IMG/VR virus record: IMGVR_UViG_3300046002_000612
Span: 1-23,813 of that record
Length of the DNA: 23,813 nucleotides
Strand: one strand, 5' to 3'
DNA from: a virus
Part shown: positions 16,665 through 23,221 of the stretch, one piece after another
Position numbering within the stretch: position 1 is the first letter of the stretch
Layout: each line of letters opens with the position of its first letter
The notes under the pieces: generated by a model
The model's database searches: none
The model's input: the letters and a program-made list of their open reading frames with translations, nothing else
Told to the model about the DNA's origin: nothing
Translations under genes and position numbers: made by a program

Positions 16665-17028
16665 CATCCCCATAAAACGCAGCCACTAGCGGGTCACGTT
16701 TAATCTTCCACTTCTTTGCCCTCTGCCGCGCCATCCGAAAGGCGTGGTCATCGAGGGACTCTTTGGCTTTCCACCTGGCAAGCTTCTCTTTGGCCGTCAA
16801 TGGCTTTGGCCTTGTCGCGTCAGAGCCGATGCCGTAACTGTAGACGGCCACAGGGACGTTGCCGATCCTGCGCCAGTCTGAAATGTAGACCAGACCAGAC
16901 TTGCGCAGCCTCAAAATCAGGATCTGCGCAGACCTTTGGGTGCAATACACCTTGGCGGCCACCTCATGTGCCGTGAGGGCATTGAGGGTCAGCAAATCAA
17001 TGATGCGGGGCAGGCGTATTGACTTCAT
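16657..17028 (-). CDS. Winged-helix DNA-binding protein
   Basis: The protein has 123 residues. Residues 8-55 (IIDLLTLNALTAHEVAAKVYC, SAQILILRLRKSGLVYIS) form a helix-turn-helix with wing, as in small phage regulators. A basic C-terminal part (RMARQRAKKWKIKRDPLVAAF) is common to phage proteins of this type. It is the last gene of the leftward operon, its ATG overlapping the preceding TGA. Its stop overlaps the end of the rightward late operon, so read-through from either side would make antisense RNA. The regulator's targets are unknown. Confidence 0.75.
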   Translation of the reverse strand: MKSIRLPRIIDLLTLNALTAHEVAAKVYCTQRSAQILILRLRKSGLVYISDWRRIGNVPVAVYSYGIGSDATRPKPLTAKEKLARWKAKESLDDHAFRMARQRAKKWKIKRDPLVAAFYGDAT

Positions 17029-17195
17029 TTCTGGTCACTGTGCTCGCGTCTAGCGTGTCTCTCAGCCTCTTCTCGGCGCATGAAGTACTTGTCGCACCTT
17101 GTGCAGCGAAACCATGTTTGCTCAATGACGCGAGTTTGCCTGTCAGTGTGCAGGCCTCTGGTTGTGCCGTACATGGTGCGAACTGGCTCAATCAC
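17025..17195 (-). CDS. Mini-protein with C2H2-type zinc finger
   Basis: A GTG start at 17195 overlaps the preceding TGA and gives 56 residues; ATG 17174 would give 49. Residues 28-52 read WFRCTRCDKYFMRREEAERH and then ARREH. That is C31-x2-C34-x12-H47-x4-H52, the spacing of a classical C2H2 zinc finger, with an aromatic residue (F38) in the usual place and many Arg for nucleic acid contact. The flanks are basic. It ends with ATGA coupling to the winged-helix gene, so both are likely translated together. A DNA- or RNA-binding role is inferred. Confidence 0.72.
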   Translation of the reverse strand: MIEPVRTMYGTTRGLHTDRQTRVIEQTWFRCTRCDKYFMRREEAERHARREHSDQK

Positions 17196-17371
17196 TTTTT
17201 GGCCGCCTTGGCGAGTGTGTAGGTCAGGATCGGCTTCTTCTTGCCAATGCCGTGATTCTTCTGTTGCGTGGCGGCTGACTTCTTGCCAACGATGTGCCTA
17301 CGCAGTGAATCGTCTTTGCTGAAGATGGATGGTGTGCCATCGTTCCAATTGAATGCTGTTTTAGCGGTCAT
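17192..17371 (-). CDS. Small basic protein, unknown function
   Basis: From ATG 17371 the product is 59 residues: MTAKTAFNWNDGTPSIF, then a Lys/Arg/His-rich remainder (HIVGKKSAATQQKNHGIGKK). There is no membrane segment or Cys. The ATG lies 11 bases inside the end of the upstream gene; a longer start at 17449 would extend 26 codons further into it and is not needed. Its stop overlaps the zinc-finger start. The basic charge suggests nucleic acid or ribosome contact, but nothing specific is seen. Confidence 0.55.
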   Translation of the reverse strand: MTAKTAFNWNDGTPSIFSKDDSLRRHIVGKKSAATQQKNHGIGKKKPILTYTLAKAAKK

Positions 17372-17549
17372 ATCCCCATTCCCTACATAGTTTCTTAATT
17401 TTGGCTCTGAGCTTCTTCTTTTCGCAGACCTTGGCGTGTTGGCTTTCAATCATCTTCTCGCGCAATGACTGTGGCGTAGGCGGAGAAGGGAATAACCCAT
17501 TCCAACCAATCAGGCCACACACCAAGGCGACAAGAAGGCGGTCTGTCAT
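17361..17549 (-). CDS. Small protein with N-terminal membrane or signal segment
   Basis: The 62-residue protein opens with one hydrophobic helix (MTDRLLVALVCGLIGWNGLF), followed by a proline turn (PSPPTPQ) and a strongly basic end (EKKKLRAKIKKLCREWG). It has no lipobox. It would be anchored in the inner membrane with the basic tail probably in the cytoplasm. ATG overlaps the preceding TGA by four bases. I do not recognise a family. Confidence 0.62.
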   Translation of the reverse strand: MTDRLLVALVCGLIGWNGLFPSPPTPQSLREKMIESQHAKVCEKKKLRAKIKKLCREWGYDR

Positions 17550-17725
17550 GTGTTGAGCTGCTTGAGTTTAGATTCAGTTTCACGCACAACTTTTATGTAG
17601 TTGCTAAGACCCATTTGCTCAATCAGCTCATCCGTCAGCCCTACCCATTCCTTTTGACCGCACCAATTACAACTGCCATCGTATGTAATCAATGCTTTTT
17701 CAACAGGGCAAAGGTGTTCTTTCAT
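17546..17725 (-). CDS. Small zinc-ribbon-like protein
   Basis: From ATG 17725 the product is 59 residues. C6, C20 and C23 (CPVEK ... SCNWCGQ) resemble a half zinc ribbon. The C-terminus is helical (LIEQMGLSNYIKVVRETESK). Translational coupling to the upstream gene (AAATGA) picks this start over the in-frame ATG at 17794, which lies inside the upstream gene. Function is unknown; such proteins often bind nucleic acid or partner proteins. Confidence 0.62.
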   Translation of the reverse strand: MKEHLCPVEKALITYDGSCNWCGQKEWVGLTDELIEQMGLSNYIKVVRETESKLKQLNT

Positions 17726-17871
17726 TTCTGATCCTCCTGCATCAATTTGGCAAGATGATGGCGCAACCATTTGGGGCCGCCAATCTCTTTCCACTTGGCG
17801 TATTGGCTTGGCGTGAGCCTGATGCCAACATTCTTACTGTTGTTTGTAATCTCTGACTTTGGCCTTGGCAT
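17722..17871 (-). CDS. Mini-protein, possibly ribbon-helix-helix type
   Basis: A 49-residue frame starts at ATG 17871, which shares one base with the preceding TGA. It begins with basic MPRPKSEITNNSKNVG. Then VGIRLTPSQYAKWKEIGGPKW gives a strand followed by helices, ending LRHHLAKLMQED. That pattern (RLTPxQxxKxxxxGGxxWLR) is frequent in small phage proteins that look like ribbon-helix-helix DNA-binding units. Stop and next ATG overlap. The assignment is tentative. Confidence 0.62.
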   Translation of the reverse strand: MPRPKSEITNNSKNVGIRLTPSQYAKWKEIGGPKWLRHHLAKLMQEDQK

Positions 17872-17981
17872 CACTTAATCTCCCACGAATTTAACAACAC
17901 AACTATGGCGGCATAGATCACCACAAACAAGATGGCAATGCCAACGGCTCCAAGCAAAACAACACTCAAGACTGTTTCCAT
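17871..17981 (-). CDS. 36-residue single-pass membrane micropeptide
   Basis: ATG 17981 gives METVLSVVLLGAVGIAILFV and then a continued hydrophobic stretch ending VLLNSWEIK. Almost the whole protein is one membrane helix. An in-frame ATG at 18065 would add 28 residues lying inside the upstream gene and is unlikely. It overlaps the upstream gene by 16 bases and the next ATG by one base (TGATG). Possible roles include modulating a host membrane enzyme; none is shown. Confidence 0.6.
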   Translation of the reverse strand: METVLSVVLLGAVGIAILFVVIYAAIVVLLNSWEIK

Positions 17982-18175
17982 AGCTTCAGCACCTTTGAAA
18001 TGTGTTGCGGTTCCTCGACCTTGGGCGAGTTCCCAAAGACAGGCTTCCAGCCGTACTTGCGCCATGTAGCTTGTACGTCAGCGCCTCTGGTTGGCTTATA
18101 GGCGGCATCAAAGACGTGCAGGGTCGGCCATACGATCTTCGTGCCAGCGGGTGGGTTCCAGTTCAACTCTCTCAT
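17966..18175 (-). CDS. Small hypothetical phage protein
   Basis: The 69-residue protein starts MRELNWNPPAGTKIVWPTLH and contains VQATWRKYGWKPVFG, so it has five Trp and many basic residues but no Cys. The ATGA overlap with the upstream gene fixes the start. It appears soluble, with a mixed alpha/beta pattern. I do not recognise a family. Confidence 0.62.
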   Translation of the reverse strand: MRELNWNPPAGTKIVWPTLHVFDAAYKPTRGADVQATWRKYGWKPVFGNSPKVEEPQHISKVLKLWKQS

Positions 18176-18441
18176 CTCTGTGCCGCCAAGAGTTCAATTT
18201 CAACTTCTTTGACGCGCTCTCTGAGGATGCTCACCTCATGCTCAAGGCTTGTGATCTTGCGCTCAAGGCGTTCGCGGGTGGTGTTTTCAGCGTGGACCCA
18301 ACCGATCAGCGTGCCCTCGGTCACGGCCATCCGCGCCAGCTTTGCATATTCATCGCGCAACATGAAGCCGCCACCCACTTCCATGGGCGGGGTGAACTTA
18401 TTTACGGCTCTGTCTATCTCGATTTGCATGGTTTCAGACAT
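18172..18441 (-). CDS. Small protein with C-terminal coiled coil
   Basis: The 89-residue protein has a mixed N-terminal half (FTPPMEVGGGFMLRDEYAKL) and a C-terminal heptad-rich helix (RERLERKITSLEHEVSILRE) that should form a dimeric coiled coil. AAGGAG lies about nine bases upstream of ATG 18441, the best ribosome site within the operon interior, so this may be a strongly translated member. It overlaps the upstream gene by 8 bases. Function is unknown. Confidence 0.68.
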   Translation of the reverse strand: MSETMQIEIDRAVNKFTPPMEVGGGFMLRDEYAKLARMAVTEGTLIGWVHAENTTRERLERKITSLEHEVSILRERVKEVEIELLAAQR

Positions 18442-18694
18442 GGTGCTCTGCTCCTTGTGTTGTCAGTTGATTATTCCAAGCAGCCACCAGTAGGCTGGCG
18501 TTGTATGGAATAGGGGTCACAGAAGACACAAACAGGCCTTTGCCGCGCTGTTTGCGTCCCGATGCATCTTTGGCATTGGTGTTGATTAACTCCTTGCGCT
18601 GGACAGCGTTGTAGATCTTGGTGCGCACAAAGCCGCCATTGATCAGCTCTTCCATCGTGCGCGGCTCTTGGCAGAAGTCTTGAAGCTCGGTCAT
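18434..18694 (-). CDS. Small protein, possibly winged-helix-like
   Basis: From ATG 18694 the product is 86 residues. MTELQDFCQEPRTMEELING, then FVRTKIYNAVQRKELINTNA and GRKQRGKGLFVS, gives helices followed by a basic strand-turn-strand as in wing domains. GGAGGAAG lies directly before the ATG, which overlaps the upstream TGA as ATGA; the in-frame ATG at 18748 lies inside the upstream gene and lacks such a site. A regulatory role is inferred. Confidence 0.65.
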   Translation of the reverse strand: MTELQDFCQEPRTMEELINGGFVRTKIYNAVQRKELINTNAKDASGRKQRGKGLFVSSVTPIPYNASLLVAAWNNQLTTQGAEHHV

Positions 18695-18873
18695 TCTTCC
18701 TCCCTCGCTTTCAGCATTGCGTCTGCCATGAGATAAGCGGTTTTCCACGGATCATCGTCAAAGTCAAAATCCGTTCTGCCTATCAGGGCTTGCATAGCCT
18801 GTGCCGCAAAGTAGTCGCGCAATGTCATGCCATTTCGGTATAGGTCTGGAAACGCCTGTTGTTCGTCACTCAT
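18691..18873 (-). CDS. Conserved-type small acidic phage protein
   Basis: The protein has 60 residues. GMTLRDYFAAQAMQALIGRT followed by an acidic FDFDDDPW and a final helix AYLMADAMLKAREEE is a pattern I recognise in many phage and prophage mini-proteins of unknown function. AAGGAG lies about 10 bases upstream. ATG overlaps the preceding TGA. It appears soluble and helical. Confidence 0.75.
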   Translation of the reverse strand: MSDEQQAFPDLYRNGMTLRDYFAAQAMQALIGRTDFDFDDDPWKTAYLMADAMLKAREEE

Positions 18874-18962
18874 TTCAAAAGCTCCTTGATGATTTCAACG
18901 ATGAAGGGCATGGCGAACAATACGCCAACGATGGTGGCTTGGGCAAATTCTTTGATGGTCAT
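18870..18962 (-). CDS. 30-residue membrane micropeptide
   Basis: ATG 18962 to TGA 18870-18872 encodes MTIKEFAQATIVGVLFAMPF followed by IVEIIKELLK. One hydrophobic helix with a charged end on each side suggests an inner-membrane anchor or amphipathic peptide. GAGGAGAATGAAG lies upstream as ribosome site, and both ends overlap the neighbours as ATGA. It is very short, so its reality rests mainly on the precise coupling and the site. Confidence 0.52.
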   Translation of the reverse strand: MTIKEFAQATIVGVLFAMPFIVEIIKELLK

Positions 18963-19105
18963 TCTTCATTCTCCTCTTGGCAAAGTTCGCAACCAGGGTG
19001 AGCTGGATCGCGGCAATCATGGTGGTTTTCAAGGCTCAACTGGTACTGGCGGCGGTGGAAGTCTTCCGCTTTCATGTAGTCGAGGTCGGCTTCGTCTAGT
19101 GGCAT
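18959..19105 (-). CDS. Small Cys/His protein, first gene of the leftward operon
   Basis: ATG 19105 gives 48 residues ending EENEE. Residues 28-42 read HHDCRDPAHPGCELC: C31, H36, C39 and C42 could hold a metal. AGGAG is six bases from the start, and the promoter at 19131-19158 lies just upstream, so this is the leader gene whose initiation gates the twelve genes coupled behind it. Eleven bases covering GGAG through the A of the ATG are the exact complement of a hairpin segment at 19206-19216. It may therefore be the target of a small RNA. Function is unknown. Confidence 0.68.
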   Translation of the reverse strand: MPLDEADLDYMKAEDFHRRQYQLSLENHHDCRDPAHPGCELCQEENEE

Positions 19106-19118
19106 GGTTATCTCCTGT

Positions 19119-19180
19119 GTTGACAAATAAATCATATCAGCTTTGCGCTTGCTGTCAAATCACCTACATTTTAGTCAACT
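19119..19180. promoter_or_regulatory. GTTGAC half-sites around the divergent promoters
   Basis: GTTGACAAAT reads rightward from 19119 and GTTGACTAAA reads leftward from 19180, facing each other. A related ATTTGACAGC sequence (leftward, about 19160-19151) lies between and contains the -35 box. This arrangement brackets the leftward promoter and could bind a dimeric regulator, perhaps the HTH protein encoded at 19310. The partial overlap with the -35 consensus means it may also be chance. Confidence 0.3.
19131..19158 (-). promoter_or_regulatory. Sigma-70 promoter of the leftward operon
   Basis: On the minus strand TTGACA (complement of 19153-19158) and TATGAT (complement of 19131-19136) are separated by 16 bases. 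The -35 is perfect and the -10 has five of six consensus bases. Transcription would start near 19124, about 19 bases before the ATG at 19105, leaving just room for the AGGAG. This is the only strong leftward promoter seen in the window. Confidence 0.72.
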
Positions 19181-19197
19181 ATTCCAGCCCTTACAAT
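19170..19197 (+). promoter_or_regulatory. Possible promoter of the small RNA
   Basis: TACAAT at 19192-19197 matches five of six -10 bases. The -35 candidate TTTAGT (19170-19175, spacing 16) is poor. Transcription would start near 19203-19204, exactly at the foot of the first hairpin. The coincidence with the hairpin supports it; the weak -35 means an activator or a different upstream promoter could be involved. Confidence 0.35.
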
Positions 19198-19202
19198 GTC
19201 CC

Positions 19203-19262
19203 TGCTGGTTATCTCCACCAGCAGTTGCCTTCGGGGGTTGGCGTGAGTCAGCCCCCTTTTTT
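19203..19262 (+). ncRNA. Candidate two-hairpin small RNA, anti-Shine-Dalgarno loop
   Basis: The sequence is a perfect 8-bp hairpin: CTGCTGGT (19202-19209), loop TATCTCC, ACCAGCAG (19217-19224). A short spacer and a terminator hairpin with six T follow. There is no reading frame of note. Positions 19206-19216 are identical to 19105-19115, so the RNA would be complementary over 11 bases to the ribosome site and first start base of the leftward operon. Seven of these bases form the exposed loop, a usual kissing or seed arrangement of antisense RNAs. It lies between divergent operons, where a rightward terminator has no gene to terminate. The alternative is a DNA operator palindrome plus an insulating terminator. 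Confidence 0.5.
19233..19262 (+). terminator. Rho-independent terminator, rightward
   Basis: GGGGGTTG (19233-19240) pairs with CAGCCCCC (19249-19256), with one G-U pair and an 8-base loop, followed by TTTTTT (19257-19262). The reverse strand has no T run after the hairpin, so it works only rightward. It would end the candidate small RNA and also stop late transcripts reading through from the structural operon. Confidence 0.82.
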
Positions 19263-19272
19263 ACCTGTACAC

Positions 19273-19302
19273 TTGACACTTTCCACAAGACATGGTTAAC
19301 AT
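19273..19302 (+). promoter_or_regulatory. Promoter of the regulator / replication operon
   Basis: TTGACA (19273-19278) is perfect; TAACAT (19297-19302) matches four of six -10 bases, spacing 18. The predicted start, about 19309-19310, coincides with the ATG of the HTH gene, implying a leaderless message. It lies ten bases after the terminator, so it is a clean restart of transcription. Confidence 0.5.
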
Positions 19303-19309
19303 CTTACAC

Positions 19310-19549
19310 ATGAAAACAATTGCACAACAGGAAATGCAGGACATCAAGTACTTGATTGAGTCAGCCGGTTACCGCCTGTCCGACCTTTGCCGAGTCGCAG
19401 GGATTGATCATTCACAGCTTTCGCGCTGGGTTAACGGTCAAGTAGATCCACGATACAGCACCGTCATCAAGCTCAAAGCGGCGGCAGACGCGCTCATCTC
19501 AGCACGCCTACAGGTCATCAATCAAGCCATGGAAGATGCCGTCAAATGA
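19310..19549 (+). CDS. Helix-turn-helix regulator (Cro/CI-like)
   Basis: From ATG 19310 the product is 79 residues. RLSDLCRVAGIDHSQLSRWV followed by NGQVDPRYSTVIKLKAAADA is an XRE-type helix-turn-helix: helix two at DLCRVAG, recognition helix at HSQLSRWV. A C-terminal helix follows (ISARLQVINQAMEDAV). There is no Shine-Dalgarno before this ATG; the promoter predicts a message starting on or next to it. ATG 19292 would add six residues but overlaps the -10. It probably binds the divergent control region next to it, repressing the leftward operon or itself. Its stop overlaps the next ATG by four bases. Confidence 0.75.
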   Translation: MKTIAQQEMQDIKYLIESAGYRLSDLCRVAGIDHSQLSRWVNGQVDPRYSTVIKLKAAADALISARLQVINQAMEDAVK

Positions 19550-20022
19550 GCAAATACAGCATTGGCGTTGACCCTGGCCTCTCTGGCGCAATCGCCATCA
19601 TGTCGGCTGAGAGCTTGAAGATATTTGATATGCCCACCATGACGGTGGAACGCAACGGCAAAGCCAAACGGCAGGTCAGCGCCAGCGAGTTAGCCGAACT
19701 GCTCTACGTCTACACCGGCAAAGACTGTCATGTCTACGTTGAAAAGGTCAGCGCCATGGCCGGTCAGGGCGTAACAAGTGTCTTCAGCTTTGGGCGATCA
19801 TTTGGCATGATTGAGGGCATCTTGGCCGCATTCAAAATGCCAGTGACATACGTTTCCCCCGCCACTTGGGTGAAGGCCGTTGGCCGAGGCCAAGGCAAGG
19901 ATGCCAGCCGCGCCAGAGCTATGGAGCTATTTCCAGAGAATCAGGCCGACTTCAAGCGCGTCAAAGATGATGGCAGAAGTGACGCAAGCCTCATCGCATA
20001 TTGGGGCAAGCACCATGGATGA
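19546..20022 (+). CDS. RuvC-like Holliday-junction resolvase
   Basis: The protein has 158 residues. SIGVDPGLSGAIAI with D9 opens the RNase H-like fold. VYVEKVSAMAGQGVTSVFSF gives E66, and DDGRSDASLIAYWG near 141-154 supplies the last acidic pair. This is the RuvC/phage resolvase set. The enzyme cuts four-way junctions made during recombination and replication so that concatemers can be packaged. It is coupled to the HTH gene (ATGA) and opens the replication block. Confidence 0.85.
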   Translation: MSKYSIGVDPGLSGAIAIMSAESLKIFDMPTMTVERNGKAKRQVSASELAELLYVYTGKDCHVYVEKVSAMAGQGVTSVFSFGRSFGMIEGILAAFKMPVTYVSPATWVKAVGRGQGKDASRARAMELFPENQADFKRVKDDGRSDASLIAYWGKHHG

Positions 20023-20224
20023 AAAAGAACGCCAAACCCTGCGTGAGCACATCATCTGGCTTGGCACAGAGCTGGAGAGACAACGCAAGCTCAATCAGCA
20101 ACACATCGTCTTCTTAAAGCGCCTCCTCGATCCAGAAGACCTTGGCTATGCCGCCAGCAACGAGGTGCGAAAAATCGCATATGTCTTGCTCATCAACAAC
20201 AACACGAATGAACAACAAGAATGA
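20015..20224 (+). CDS. Small helical protein, unknown function
   Basis: From ATG 20015 the product is 69 residues: MDEKERQTLREHIIWLGTEL, ERQRKLNQQHIVFLKRLLDP and then EVRKIAYVLLINNN. It is almost entirely helical with heptad-like spacing and no Cys. The start lies 8 bases inside the end of the resolvase gene and the stop overlaps the nuclease start as ATGA. It may be a small partner of one of them. A longer start at 19880 would lie within the resolvase and is rejected. Confidence 0.65.
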   Translation: MDEKERQTLREHIIWLGTELERQRKLNQQHIVFLKRLLDPEDLGYAASNEVRKIAYVLLINNNTNEQQE

Positions 20225-21324
20225 AACAACTAAAACTGCGCCCATCTTCAGCCTCGCGTTGGATAGCTTGCCCAGCCTCTGCGCGGCTCTCAACCCTTGT
20301 ACCCTACCAAGAGAGTGGGGAGGCCGCCAAGATAGGCACAGCCATCCACGCGCTGGCAGAAACCTGCTTCCAGCTTGACACCGACCCCATGAAGTTTGTC
20401 GGCCAGCAGGTCGAGGGCATCACCATGACTGAAGAAAACTGCGAGTTTGCGCTGGAGCACCTGCAAGCCATCTGGGCGGTGCAGGACGAGCTGGGGCATG
20501 TGAAGGTGGAGCAGCTATTCAAGCTCTACGACACGCCCAAATTCAGCCTCCAAGGCACTGCTGATGTGGTCGGCTGGTCTGACTCCAAACTCACCATCGC
20601 AGATCTGAAGACAGGGCGCGGTTATGTGGACGCCGACTCTGAGCAGATGAAGATCTACGCCTTGGGCGCGATGAAGGCCAATAACCTGCGGGTGAAGGAG
20701 GTCGAGTTCCAGATCATCCAGCCACACCATGGCGACAAACGCATTCACCGCATGTCATCAGATGAGCTTGGCGTGTGGGAGACGCAAATCATGATGCCCG
20801 CCATTGAAGATGCAGTGAGTGATGCACCGCGCTACAACCCATCAGAGTCAGCGTGCCAATGGTGTCCAGCAAAGACTATTTGTTCTGCACAGAAGGCTTC
20901 ATTTGACTTGGTGGCGGCGCAACCAGATCTCACCATCATGAAAAAGGAAGAGGTCAAGGAAGTCATGCTGGCGCTGACACCGGCACAGATTAGCGACATC
21001 TTGGACCGCGCACCATTGGTCGAGAAGTTCATTGATGCGGTGCGCGCACACGCCTTGGACGCGATGGAGAAGCACAGTGCAGTGATACCTGGCTGGCAGC
21101 TCCAGCCCAAACGCGCATCCCGCAAATGGCTTGACGAGGGCACTGCGCGTGCCGAATTGATTGCTGCGGGTTTATCCGATGTCGATATTTTTGAAACAAA
21201 CCTAATTACTCCAGCGGCGGCAGAGAAACTGCTTCCAAAGGATCAAAGAGTACTCTTGGACGAATTGACGGCCAAGGTATCGAGTGGCTTGACGCTGGCA
21301 AAAGATCGCGGCCTCAGTCAATAA
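20221..21324 (+). CDS. Cas4/AddB-like Fe-S PD-(D/E)XK exonuclease (DUF2800-like)
   Basis: The protein has 367 residues. GTAIHALAETC gives H43. GTADVVGWSDSKLTIADLKTG gives D115, D128 and K130, the PD-(D/E)XK set. EQMKIYALG supplies the following Gln-Tyr motif. C17 together with C212, C215 and C221 (ACQWCPAKTIC) matches the four Cys that hold a 4Fe-4S cluster in Cas4 and AddB nucleases. A phage enzyme of this kind makes or degrades single-stranded ends for recombination. Neighbours RuvC-like and SSB-like fit a recombination set. The C-terminal 120 residues are helical and less conserved. The start is coupled by ATGA. Confidence 0.87.
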   Translation: MKQLKLRPSSASRWIACPASARLSTLVPYQESGEAAKIGTAIHALAETCFQLDTDPMKFVGQQVEGITMTEENCEFALEHLQAIWAVQDELGHVKVEQLFKLYDTPKFSLQGTADVVGWSDSKLTIADLKTGRGYVDADSEQMKIYALGAMKANNLRVKEVEFQIIQPHHGDKRIHRMSSDELGVWETQIMMPAIEDAVSDAPRYNPSESACQWCPAKTICSAQKASFDLVAAQPDLTIMKKEEVKEVMLALTPAQISDILDRAPLVEKFIDAVRAHALDAMEKHSAVIPGWQLQPKRASRKWLDEGTARAELIAAGLSDVDIFETNLITPAAAEKLLPKDQRVLLDELTAKVSSGLTLAKDRGLSQ

Positions 21325-21357
21325 TGCAACCCCTGTAACTTTTAAAGGCAAACGCAA

Positions 21358-21939
21358 ATGCTAAATCTCTCATCTGGTGGCGGCTCTGGAAACTACATCC
21401 GCTTCTCACCCCAAGCCAATGCTTGGACCAATAACCTTGGCGAGGAAATCCAACTCAAGAAGGTGGTGTTCGACATTGACGCAGTGCAAACAGGCTGGCT
21501 CCTTTTAGGTGTCGGTGTGCGCGAGTGGCAAGCCGATGCTCAGCTTGGCCGTAAAGGTCCACAGCCAACGCCAGAGCACAAGCGCGGCTTCATCGTCAAG
21601 TTCTACAACAAAGACATTGGCACTGTGGAGTGGTCATCTAATGGTGTCGGTCCCAACATGGGACTTGAGCAGCTCTACACCGCCTGCGCGGCACAGCACG
21701 CCGCCAACTCTGGAAAGATGCCAGTTCTGGAATACACAGGCTCTAAGTTGGAGAAGATTGGCAAGGGCACAACCCGCATCCCAGCCTTCAATTTGGTGTC
21801 GTGGATTGACAAGCCAGCAGGAATGGACCAGTCTGATGCCGAGTTTGTGGCACAGGCCGCGCCAGCTCCAGCTCCAGTGGCAAAGCCAACGCCAGCGGCG
21901 GCTGCTGTGGCCGCCATTGAAGAAGATGAGATGTTTTAA
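21358..21939 (+). CDS. Single-stranded-DNA-binding-like protein
   Basis: The protein has 193 residues. An N-terminal beta-rich domain (NYIRFSPQANAWTNNLGEE, KRGFIVKFYNKDIGTVEW, MGLEQLYTACAAQHA) is followed by a Pro/Ala linker (APAPAPVAKPTPAAAAVAA) and the acidic end IEEDEMF. That end recalls the DDDIPF-type tip by which SSB proteins recruit partners. I recognise the full layout from phage recombination regions, next to DUF2800-type nucleases as here. AAAGG lies before the ATG. It is followed by a strong terminator, so this transcript ends here. Confidence 0.78.
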   Translation: MLNLSSGGGSGNYIRFSPQANAWTNNLGEEIQLKKVVFDIDAVQTGWLLLGVGVREWQADAQLGRKGPQPTPEHKRGFIVKFYNKDIGTVEWSSNGVGPNMGLEQLYTACAAQHAANSGKMPVLEYTGSKLEKIGKGTTRIPAFNLVSWIDKPAGMDQSDAEFVAQAAPAPAPVAKPTPAAAAVAAIEEDEMF

Positions 21940-21955
21940 CTGACTAGAGTCAAGT

Positions 21956-21985
21956 GCCGAGGTGTCACAGCCTCGGCTTTTTTTT
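21956..21985 (+). terminator. Rho-independent terminator after the SSB-like gene
   Basis: GCCGAGG (21956-21962) pairs perfectly with CCTCGGC (21971-21977) across an 8-base loop, followed by eight T. The strength and position show that the regulator-to-SSB genes form one transcription unit. Confidence 0.88.
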
Positions 21986-22005
21986 CCTCTAAAAAAACTG
22001 ACCTT

Positions 22006-22291: not shown

Positions 22292-23221
22292 ATGAACAAG
22301 ATTGAGTTTGGCGACTGTCGAAAAACGATGCGGAGATGGGCAAATGAAGGCATCAAGGCGCAAACGTGCGTTACAAGCCCTCCTTACTATGGTTTGCGTG
22401 ACTATGGTCACGATGGACAGATTGGCTTGGAAGAGACACCAGAGGAATACATCAAGGCCATGGTCGAGGTGTTTCGATGTGTGCGCGATGTGCTTGCAGA
22501 CGATGGGACGCTATGGCTGAACATTGGGGACAGCTATTACAACTACCGACCCGGCAAGGGTCAGGCATTGGTGCAGCAAACTGTTGCAAACAATGACCAA
22601 GACCTGCCACAGGTTTGCGCAAGGCGGGGAAACAAGTTGGAAGGCCTCAAAGAAAAAGACCTGATCGGCATCCCTTGGATGCTGGCCTTTGCACTTCGTG
22701 CCGATGGCTGGTATCTACGCCAAGACATCATCTGGCACAAGCCAAACCCCATGCCTGAGTCGGTGCAAGACAGATGCACCAAGGCGCATGAATACATCTT
22801 CTTGATGAGTAAGTCGCAGAAGTACTACTACGACCATGAATCCATCAAAGATCCTGTGAAGCAGGATTGGGGCACACGCGATAGGTCTGACGGCAAGTAC
22901 CACAACGAAGGATCTGGCCTGCAACCGCACAGCGGCTTAGAAAAATCCTATGAGATGGCAAATAAGCGCAGCGTCTGGACGGTCAACACCAAGCCCTATG
23001 CTGGCGCTCATTTCGCTGTATTCCCGCAAGAGTTAATCGAACCCTGCATCATGGCTGGTGCTGCGCCTGGTCAAGTAGTGCTCGACCCTTTCATGGGTAG
23101 CGGCACAACAGCGCAGGTGGCGCAGCACTTAGGCCGCCAGTACTTGGGCTGTGAACTGAACGAAGAATACAAAACCCTGCAAGAAAAGAGATTGCGCCAA
23201 ATGTCTTTGGTGCTGGAGTAA
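22292..23221 (+). CDS. DNA methyltransferase (beta-class, TSPPY motif)
   Basis: The protein has 309 residues. TSPPYYGLRDYG at 28-39 is catalytic motif IV, and DPFMGSGTT at 265-273 is the S-adenosylmethionine motif I, followed by CELNEEY. Motif IV before motif I is the beta order, used by N4-cytosine and some N6-adenine enzymes; TSPPY is most frequent in N4-cytosine ones. The product would methylate phage DNA at a specific site, probably to resist host restriction; no restriction nuclease is next to it, so it is a solitary enzyme in this window. The segment between the motifs (about 185-225) is charged and likely forms the target-recognition part. Confidence 0.9.
   Translation: MNKIEFGDCRKTMRRWANEGIKAQTCVTSPPYYGLRDYGHDGQIGLEETPEEYIKAMVEVFRCVRDVLADDGTLWLNIGDSYYNYRPGKGQALVQQTVANNDQDLPQVCARRGNKLEGLKEKDLIGIPWMLAFALRADGWYLRQDIIWHKPNPMPESVQDRCTKAHEYIFLMSKSQKYYYDHESIKDPVKQDWGTRDRSDGKYHNEGSGLQPHSGLEKSYEMANKRSVWTVNTKPYAGAHFAVFPQELIEPCIMAGAAPGQVVLDPFMGSGTTAQVAQHLGRQYLGCELNEEYKTLQEKRLRQMSLVLE

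Follow-up and report, generated by a model that had tools for sequence, protein, structure and literature searches.

Comparative evidence that the message of a phage XRE regulator very probably begins at its start codon

Where does a regulator's message begin when its promoter appears to end almost at its start codon? This question is raised by IMG/VR virus record IMGVR_UViG_3300046002_000612, a stretch of 23,813 bases that was analyzed whole and is referred to here as "the window". In the window, the intergenic region between a leftward cluster of small open reading frames (ORFs) and a rightward operon holds three promoter-like elements: a leftward promoter (19158-19131), a + strand gene for a short RNA (∼19204-19262), and the regulator promoter at 19273-19302. 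The regulator, an XRE-family HTH protein of 79 aa, is encoded by the first gene of the rightward operon (19310-19549, + strand; HTH_3, E 1.3e-07). It is followed on the same strand by a RuvC-like Holliday junction resolvase (19546-20022; phrog_1770, E 6.3e-35), whose gene overlaps the regulator stop codon as ATGA, and then by a DUF2800/PD-(D/E)XK exonuclease (20221-21324; PF10926, E 7.2e-59) and a DNA methylase (at 22292). The first-pass annotation had proposed a leaderless regulator message, and the span that it singled out, 19273-19549, runs from the −35 hexamer to the stop codon. Elsewhere in the window, two HNH_3 endonuclease genes, possibly encoding homing endonucleases, lie among the structural genes (84-548 and 1831-2331, + strand).

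The regulator promoter as found by a promoter scan consists of the −35 hexamer TTGACA (19273-19278, + strand), an 18-nt spacer, and the −10 hexamer TAACAT (19297-19302), with the A of ATG 19310 as the 8th base past the −10. Taken alone, this promoter evidence is weak, because the scan of 17000-22000 found 3 promoter-like sites compared with 3.6 (sd 2.0) in shuffled sequences, and because the absence of a Shine-Dalgarno (SD) sequence is common in the rightward operon. Pairing of the anti-SD with the 20 nt ahead of ATG 19310 amounts to only −2.2 kcal/mol, in agreement with the earlier statement that no SD exists there, and there is no SD within the predicted regulator message. The first four genes of the left operon, by comparison, pair at −7.4 to −11.4 kcal/mol. 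An SD is also missing from the rightward-operon genes for DUF2800 (−0.7), ORF 22006 (+0.7) and the methylase (−0.9). Weak values (−4.8 to +0.1) also occur at several ORFs deeper in the left operon. SD absence was dropped as the main argument for a leaderless message, since internal genes of the rightward operon lack an SD as well. Start signals are mixed within this one phage, with an SD at the first left genes and at many structural genes and none at several rightward genes.

Stronger evidence came from relatives of the window. The viral_contigs collection was searched with RuvC, DUF2800, alignment A1 and divergent-RuvC queries, yielding at least 317 loci, many of which share a contig with another. 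Together with the window, this gave 318 sequences among the matches listed, of which 301 encode the regulator, anchored on an ATG no more than 6 nt from the alignment start, and 283 extend 60 nt or more upstream of it. The upstreams of these 283 represent 105 unique 90-nt sequences; loci whose upstream was not usable were left out. The 79-aa regulator protein as sole query returned 20 stretches from viral_contigs and no confirmed relative, because single-protein queries reach close relatives only. No DNA match to the window was found among the phage records, and the relatives that the DUF2800 protein retrieved from those records are all below 60% identity. A scan of genome_contigs with the DUF2800 protein found no relative and hence no prophage, and literature searches by subject, rather than by phage name, found no paper on these phages.

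In 102 of the 105 unique upstreams among the matches listed, which come from a single phage group and are not independent of one another, exactly 7 nt separate the end of TAACAT from the regulator ATG, and in all 105 the first base of a −35-like hexamer lies at −37. The remaining three (L270, L273 and L296) read TTGACC-17-TAGGAT-8-ATG, and their regulator proteins are the most divergent among the matches listed. Thirty-one distinct 7-mers stand between the −10 and the ATG, the three included, and 28 lie beyond the commonest few. The geometry is kept across ∼45-100% identity of the regulator protein. Fitch counts over 120 taxa gave 35, 26, 6, 22, 24 and 18 changes at positions −7 to −2, 131 in total; they gave 0 at −1 (C), 0 over ATGAAA, 0 over GGTTAACAT (19294-19302, positions −16 to −8), which contains the −10 hexamer, and 0 over a CAA in the promoter spacer (19286-19288, positions −24 to −22). 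These counts are descriptive and are not a probability: the 120 taxa were preselected for TAACAT at its fixed place, L270 and L296 were left out, and the zero length change between TAACAT and the ATG in these taxa is a result of that selection, the unselected count being 102/105.

Other intervals in the same intergenic region served as controls and vary, with between 4 and 13 different lengths each in 95-99 upstreams. The distance from the small RNA terminator's end to the −35 has 4 lengths, that from the AGTTGCC motif of the small RNA to the terminator end has 9, and that from the small RNA −10 to AGTTGCC has 13 (99 upstreams each); the distance between the left −10 and the small RNA −10 has 7 (95 upstreams). 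For the first three of these intervals, in that order, Fitch counts of length changes in 119 taxa are 11, 38 and 30. The best control for the regulator geometry is the divergent left promoter, TTGACA-16-TATGAT with an extended −10 (19131-19158, − strand; promoter scan), where 21-55 nt separate the −10 from the first ATG that opens a frame, with 17 values and a median of 34, in 112 unique upstreams; the −10 was not found in 6 further upstreams. Together, these comparisons across relatives provide strong evidence that lifts the regulator promoter above chance, and they point to a −10 hexamer and a start codon that are locked together. Such locking would leave no room for an SD or a leader, and hence no tuning of regulator translation through a ribosome-binding site.

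The position of the transcription start can be narrowed further. Bacterial transcription is described as usually starting 7 or 8 bp past the −10 at a purine, with pyrimidine-rich sequence behind the −10 shifting the start to 8-9 (PMC5101437). In all 102 upstreams with TAACAT at the fixed distance, C is the 7th base after the −10, and the A of the ATG follows as the 8th. The 6th base (−2) is a purine in 90/102, which leaves a 2-nt leader possible. From the invariant C, the A at the 8th base and the usual rule, we infer that transcription starts at the A of the ATG (19310) or, less likely, two bases before it (19308). This supports the earlier claim of a start at or near ATG 19310, to within ∼2 bases. 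In the proposed mechanism, TTGACA-18-TAACAT would position RNA polymerase such that the A of ATG 19310 becomes the first base of the RNA, and the 5′-terminal AUG would then be translated by a leaderless route; we infer both steps from the conserved arrangement. Two properties of the predicted message are as expected for one bound by its 5′ end. Its first 20 nt are A-rich and predicted to be mostly unpaired (0.76, versus 0.47 for internal windows), and codon 2 is AAA in 102/102, whereas elsewhere in the regulator gene AAG outnumbers AAA, 297 to 171.

A different start codon would change this picture. A gene caller might place the start at the in-frame ATG 19292, giving an 85-aa protein and making TAACAT part of the coding sequence; the frame is open from there, and the peptide MVNI is conserved in many relatives. 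The codon at 19292, however, is ATG in only 77/105 upstreams, and is otherwise GGG (15), GTG (7), CTG (3), GAG (2) or AGG (1). Moreover, positions −7 to −2 change freely, ATG 19292 sits inside the promoter, and no SD precedes it (−0.7 kcal/mol). This reading is extremely unlikely. Because ATG 19292 is not conserved, the comparison places the translation start at 19310, as the first-pass annotation had it. The codon at this position is ATG in 105/105 upstreams, whose loci were anchored on such an ATG.

The regulator might instead be read mainly from a longer message that begins at the small RNA promoter or further left, reads through the terminator, and carries a long leader without an SD. A promoter with the −10 TACAAT does lie upstream on the same strand, and terminators leak. 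In 62/102 relatives, an upstream frame that has a start and is open over 20 codons or more has its stop in the ATGA at the regulator start, which would allow coupled translation. Against such a message, a GC-rich terminator intervenes in 99 of the 100 upstreams measured (the hundredth keeps the terminator and has lost AGTTGCC), the upstream frame does not occur in the other 40/102 relatives, and the promoter directly before the regulator gene is conserved to the base. The small RNA gene separates this promoter from transcription further upstream. We regard a longer main message as quite unlikely. Coupling of regulator translation to the upstream frame was set aside, the frame being missing in 40/102.

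The SD comparison across relatives also bears on where the message would begin. Leaders of the divergent left promoter have a median anti-SD pairing of −7.4 kcal/mol, with 103/112 at −4 or better, whereas regulator upstreams have a median of −2.2 kcal/mol, with 20/105 at −4 or better. In these 20, the pairing bases belong to G-runs 13-16 nt before the ATG (17 upstreams) or to TAGGAT itself (3); they are promoter bases that precede the ATG by at least 10 nt and lie ahead of the predicted transcription start. Pairing through a G-run or TAGGAT would be usable only with transcription starting further upstream. Taken together, these data suggest that the regulator mRNA in this environmental phage family very probably begins right at the first codon.

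What the regulator does is a separate question. Its product is one XRE domain (HTH_3) without an S24 peptidase, and its AlphaFold2 model is a confidently predicted XRE fold (mean pLDDT 91.5) whose last helix is long. A Foldseek search of the PDB gave no match at E 0.001; the best hits were DdrO, XRE and restriction controller proteins at E 0.026-0.08, with C.AhdI, C.BclI and C.Esp1396I in the top 20 (E 0.03-0.08), and a search of BFVD matched one phage XRE protein at 2.5e-06. In VIA-align, HNF-1A (Z 9.7) scores above C.Esp1396I (Z 7.9, rmsd 2.1, 62 aligned), which indicates that the predicted fold is generic to XRE proteins and that the fold search singles out no family.

The first-pass annotation had suggested a maintenance switch like that of lambda cI, with the regulator as a lysogeny repressor made from a PRM-like promoter. 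Leaderless messages are described for lambda cI and PY54 cI (PMC4488713), and here too the product is an XRE protein, with PHROG matches that include repressors. The surroundings of the gene fit this idea poorly. The gene stands at the head of the rightward recombination operon and is read in the direction of that operon, and it encodes only 79 aa. S24 (PF00717) was found in 0/21 records, and neither the window nor 20 long relatives, records that may be fragments, yielded a tyrosine or serine integrase (PF00589, PF00239), which agrees with the earlier observation that no integrase is seen. A search of 20 records, possibly incomplete, found no second XRE gene as in a cI/cro pair and no opposing repressor gene: HTH_3 matches number one in 18 of the 20, two in one 69-kb record, and none in G013, although a locus from that last record (L126) encodes the regulator. 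Lysogeny of a plasmid-like kind would not require an integrase, and some small repressors lack S24. A lysogeny repressor is nonetheless quite unlikely, and the maintenance switch was not borne out. In the 69-kb record with two matches (IMGVR_UViG_3300011116_000225, 69,407 bases), the regulator region occurs twice (L240 and L264), ∼34.6 kb apart and with differing sequences, and the record may consist of two joined genomes.

The gene has Cro-like features, being a small single-domain XRE gene and the first of a recombination operon. Because of its position, size and fold, and because no integrase or S24 was found, the regulator most likely would act as an early autoregulator of the rightward operon, Cro-like or C-protein-like, rather than as a lysogeny repressor. 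The reading as a whole, a small XRE regulator whose mRNA would start at or within ∼2 bases of ATG 19310 and which would most likely act as an early autoregulator of its operon, is one that we consider likely. The best candidate for an operator of the regulator itself would be CAA-N7-TTAACA, which spans spacer and −10 (CAA 19286-19288, TTAACA 19296-19301) and is unchanged in 120 taxa; a divergent clade reads TGTCAA-N7-TTAACA. The leaderless start does not depend on this candidate operator or on autoregulation. The regulator gene ends in the ATGA overlap in 102/105 unique relatives. In L273, it lies ∼1.2 kb upstream of the RuvC match without an overlap, with something inserted between the two.

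The small RNA gene (19192-19262, + strand) has a weak −35, the −10 TACAAT (19192-19197), and a predicted RNA of ∼19204-19262 comprising a 5′ hairpin with a variable loop, AGTTGCC (19223-19229), and a strong intrinsic terminator (19233-19262). Hairpin, AGTTGCC and terminator recur in 101 unique versions, the base pairs at given helix positions changing between versions, with these pairs coming from folding each sequence alone and not from alignment-based covariation. Rfam gave no match at the gathering threshold. The small RNA was not found in L052/L183 (one contig), L270 or L296, all of which keep the close −10; L273, in which 87 nt lie between the regulator and the locus end and RuvC is not adjacent, was excluded from this judgement. 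Since the small RNA is missing from some relatives in which the leaderless geometry stays, the two are separable, and a scheme combining them is a possibility for some members only. In L052/L183, a deletion took the small RNA promoter and hairpin and left the small RNA terminator and the regulator promoter intact.

One such scheme has two parts: the small RNA would silence the SD-led left genes by pairing with their SDs, and the leaderless regulator would escape. Insensitivity of the regulator to an anti-SD RNA, as predicted in the first-pass annotation, follows logically from its lack of an SD. The same annotation held the opposite operon to be sensitive to such an RNA, a claim that is weak as a general rule. 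Left gene 1 (18959-19105, − strand; 48 aa) has the SD AGGAGA, with an anti-SD pairing of −7.4 kcal/mol, and its SD/start region is complementary to the small RNA hairpin over 11 nt (GGAGATAACCA), the longest such match among 112 pairs. Across relatives, however, swapped pairs are nearly as good as own pairs. The duplex energy is −23.57 for own pairs versus −22.87 (sd 0.32) for swapped ones, with 1.6% of swaps as low, and the longest complement is 5.96 versus 5.76 (sd 0.09), with 3% of swaps as high; the swaps ignore relatedness, and this small excess may reflect descent. Leaders with GGAG occur with CTCC-bearing hairpins in 35/41 cases and with other hairpins in 40/71, but most small RNA loops contain no anti-SD, for example TTCATGCTT, TTTCTGCTTT and TTTTCAAGGT, and the loci named above lack the small RNA while keeping the close −10. 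The two-part scheme is unlikely. A broader form of it, translational insulation, is very unlikely: in that form, the master regulator of the rightward operon would always be made from a leaderless message, with the start codon fixed to the gene's own operator and −10, an adjacent small RNA with an evolvable loop would disable SD-led genes, and infection would shift translation from SD-led genes to the SD-poor rightward operon. Left gene 1 differs strongly among close relatives (L002-L318), with 82 distinct left leaders among 98 small RNA-leader pairs, suggesting a swapping site for small early genes.

For the preferred reading, an early autoregulator with a leaderless message, the gene start is corrected from 19292 to 19310, and the gene is recast from a maintenance repressor to an operon-heading autoregulator. 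Among uncultivated phage groups, this is one of the cleaner comparative cases for a leaderless start. Saturated substitution between the −10 and the ATG, with spacing that stays fixed, provides a sequence-only test that can be applied to other phages.

A leaderless start is an uncommon mode that is already known for phage and restriction-system regulators. The cI and cro messages of phage PY54 both begin at the AUG, as mapped by RACE (PMC4488713). These are small phage XRE regulators with a single mapped 5′ end at the AUG, and PY54 Cro heads an operon, as the regulator does here; PY54, as portrayed there, is temperate and has a cI/cro pair, whereas in the present phages one XRE gene each and no lysogeny gene were found, and the case made here is one of comparative sequence. 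Lambda cI transcribed from PRM, as cited in PMC4488713, is likewise a phage XRE message that starts at an AUG right after its promoter. Unlike lambda cI, the present regulator lies in a rightward recombination operon and has no C-terminal S24 domain, and no integrase was found. In Deinococcus, leaderless genes with a "−10 region adjacent to ORF" have TANNNT ∼6-7 bp before the ORF, as here; that arrangement is described as genome-wide and weakly dependent on the −35 (PMC12340547), whereas here it concerns a single promoter, its −35 is conserved, and the left operon of the phage relies on SDs. A further parallel is with the C genes of restriction systems, for which leaderless messages are reported to be common and which overlap a nuclease gene; in PvuII, translation of the two overlapping genes is reported to be independent (PMC4824078, PMC2997769). 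The C genes pvuIIC and csp231IC resemble the regulator gene in encoding single-domain XRE proteins of ∼80 aa from leaderless messages and in overlapping a downstream nuclease gene (PMC2997769, PMC4824078). C.Esp1396I and C.AhdI are among the regulator's fold neighbours, a similarity that is generic to XRE proteins. The downstream nuclease here, unlike that of the C genes, is a phage RuvC-like resolvase, and the DNA methylase lies at 22292.
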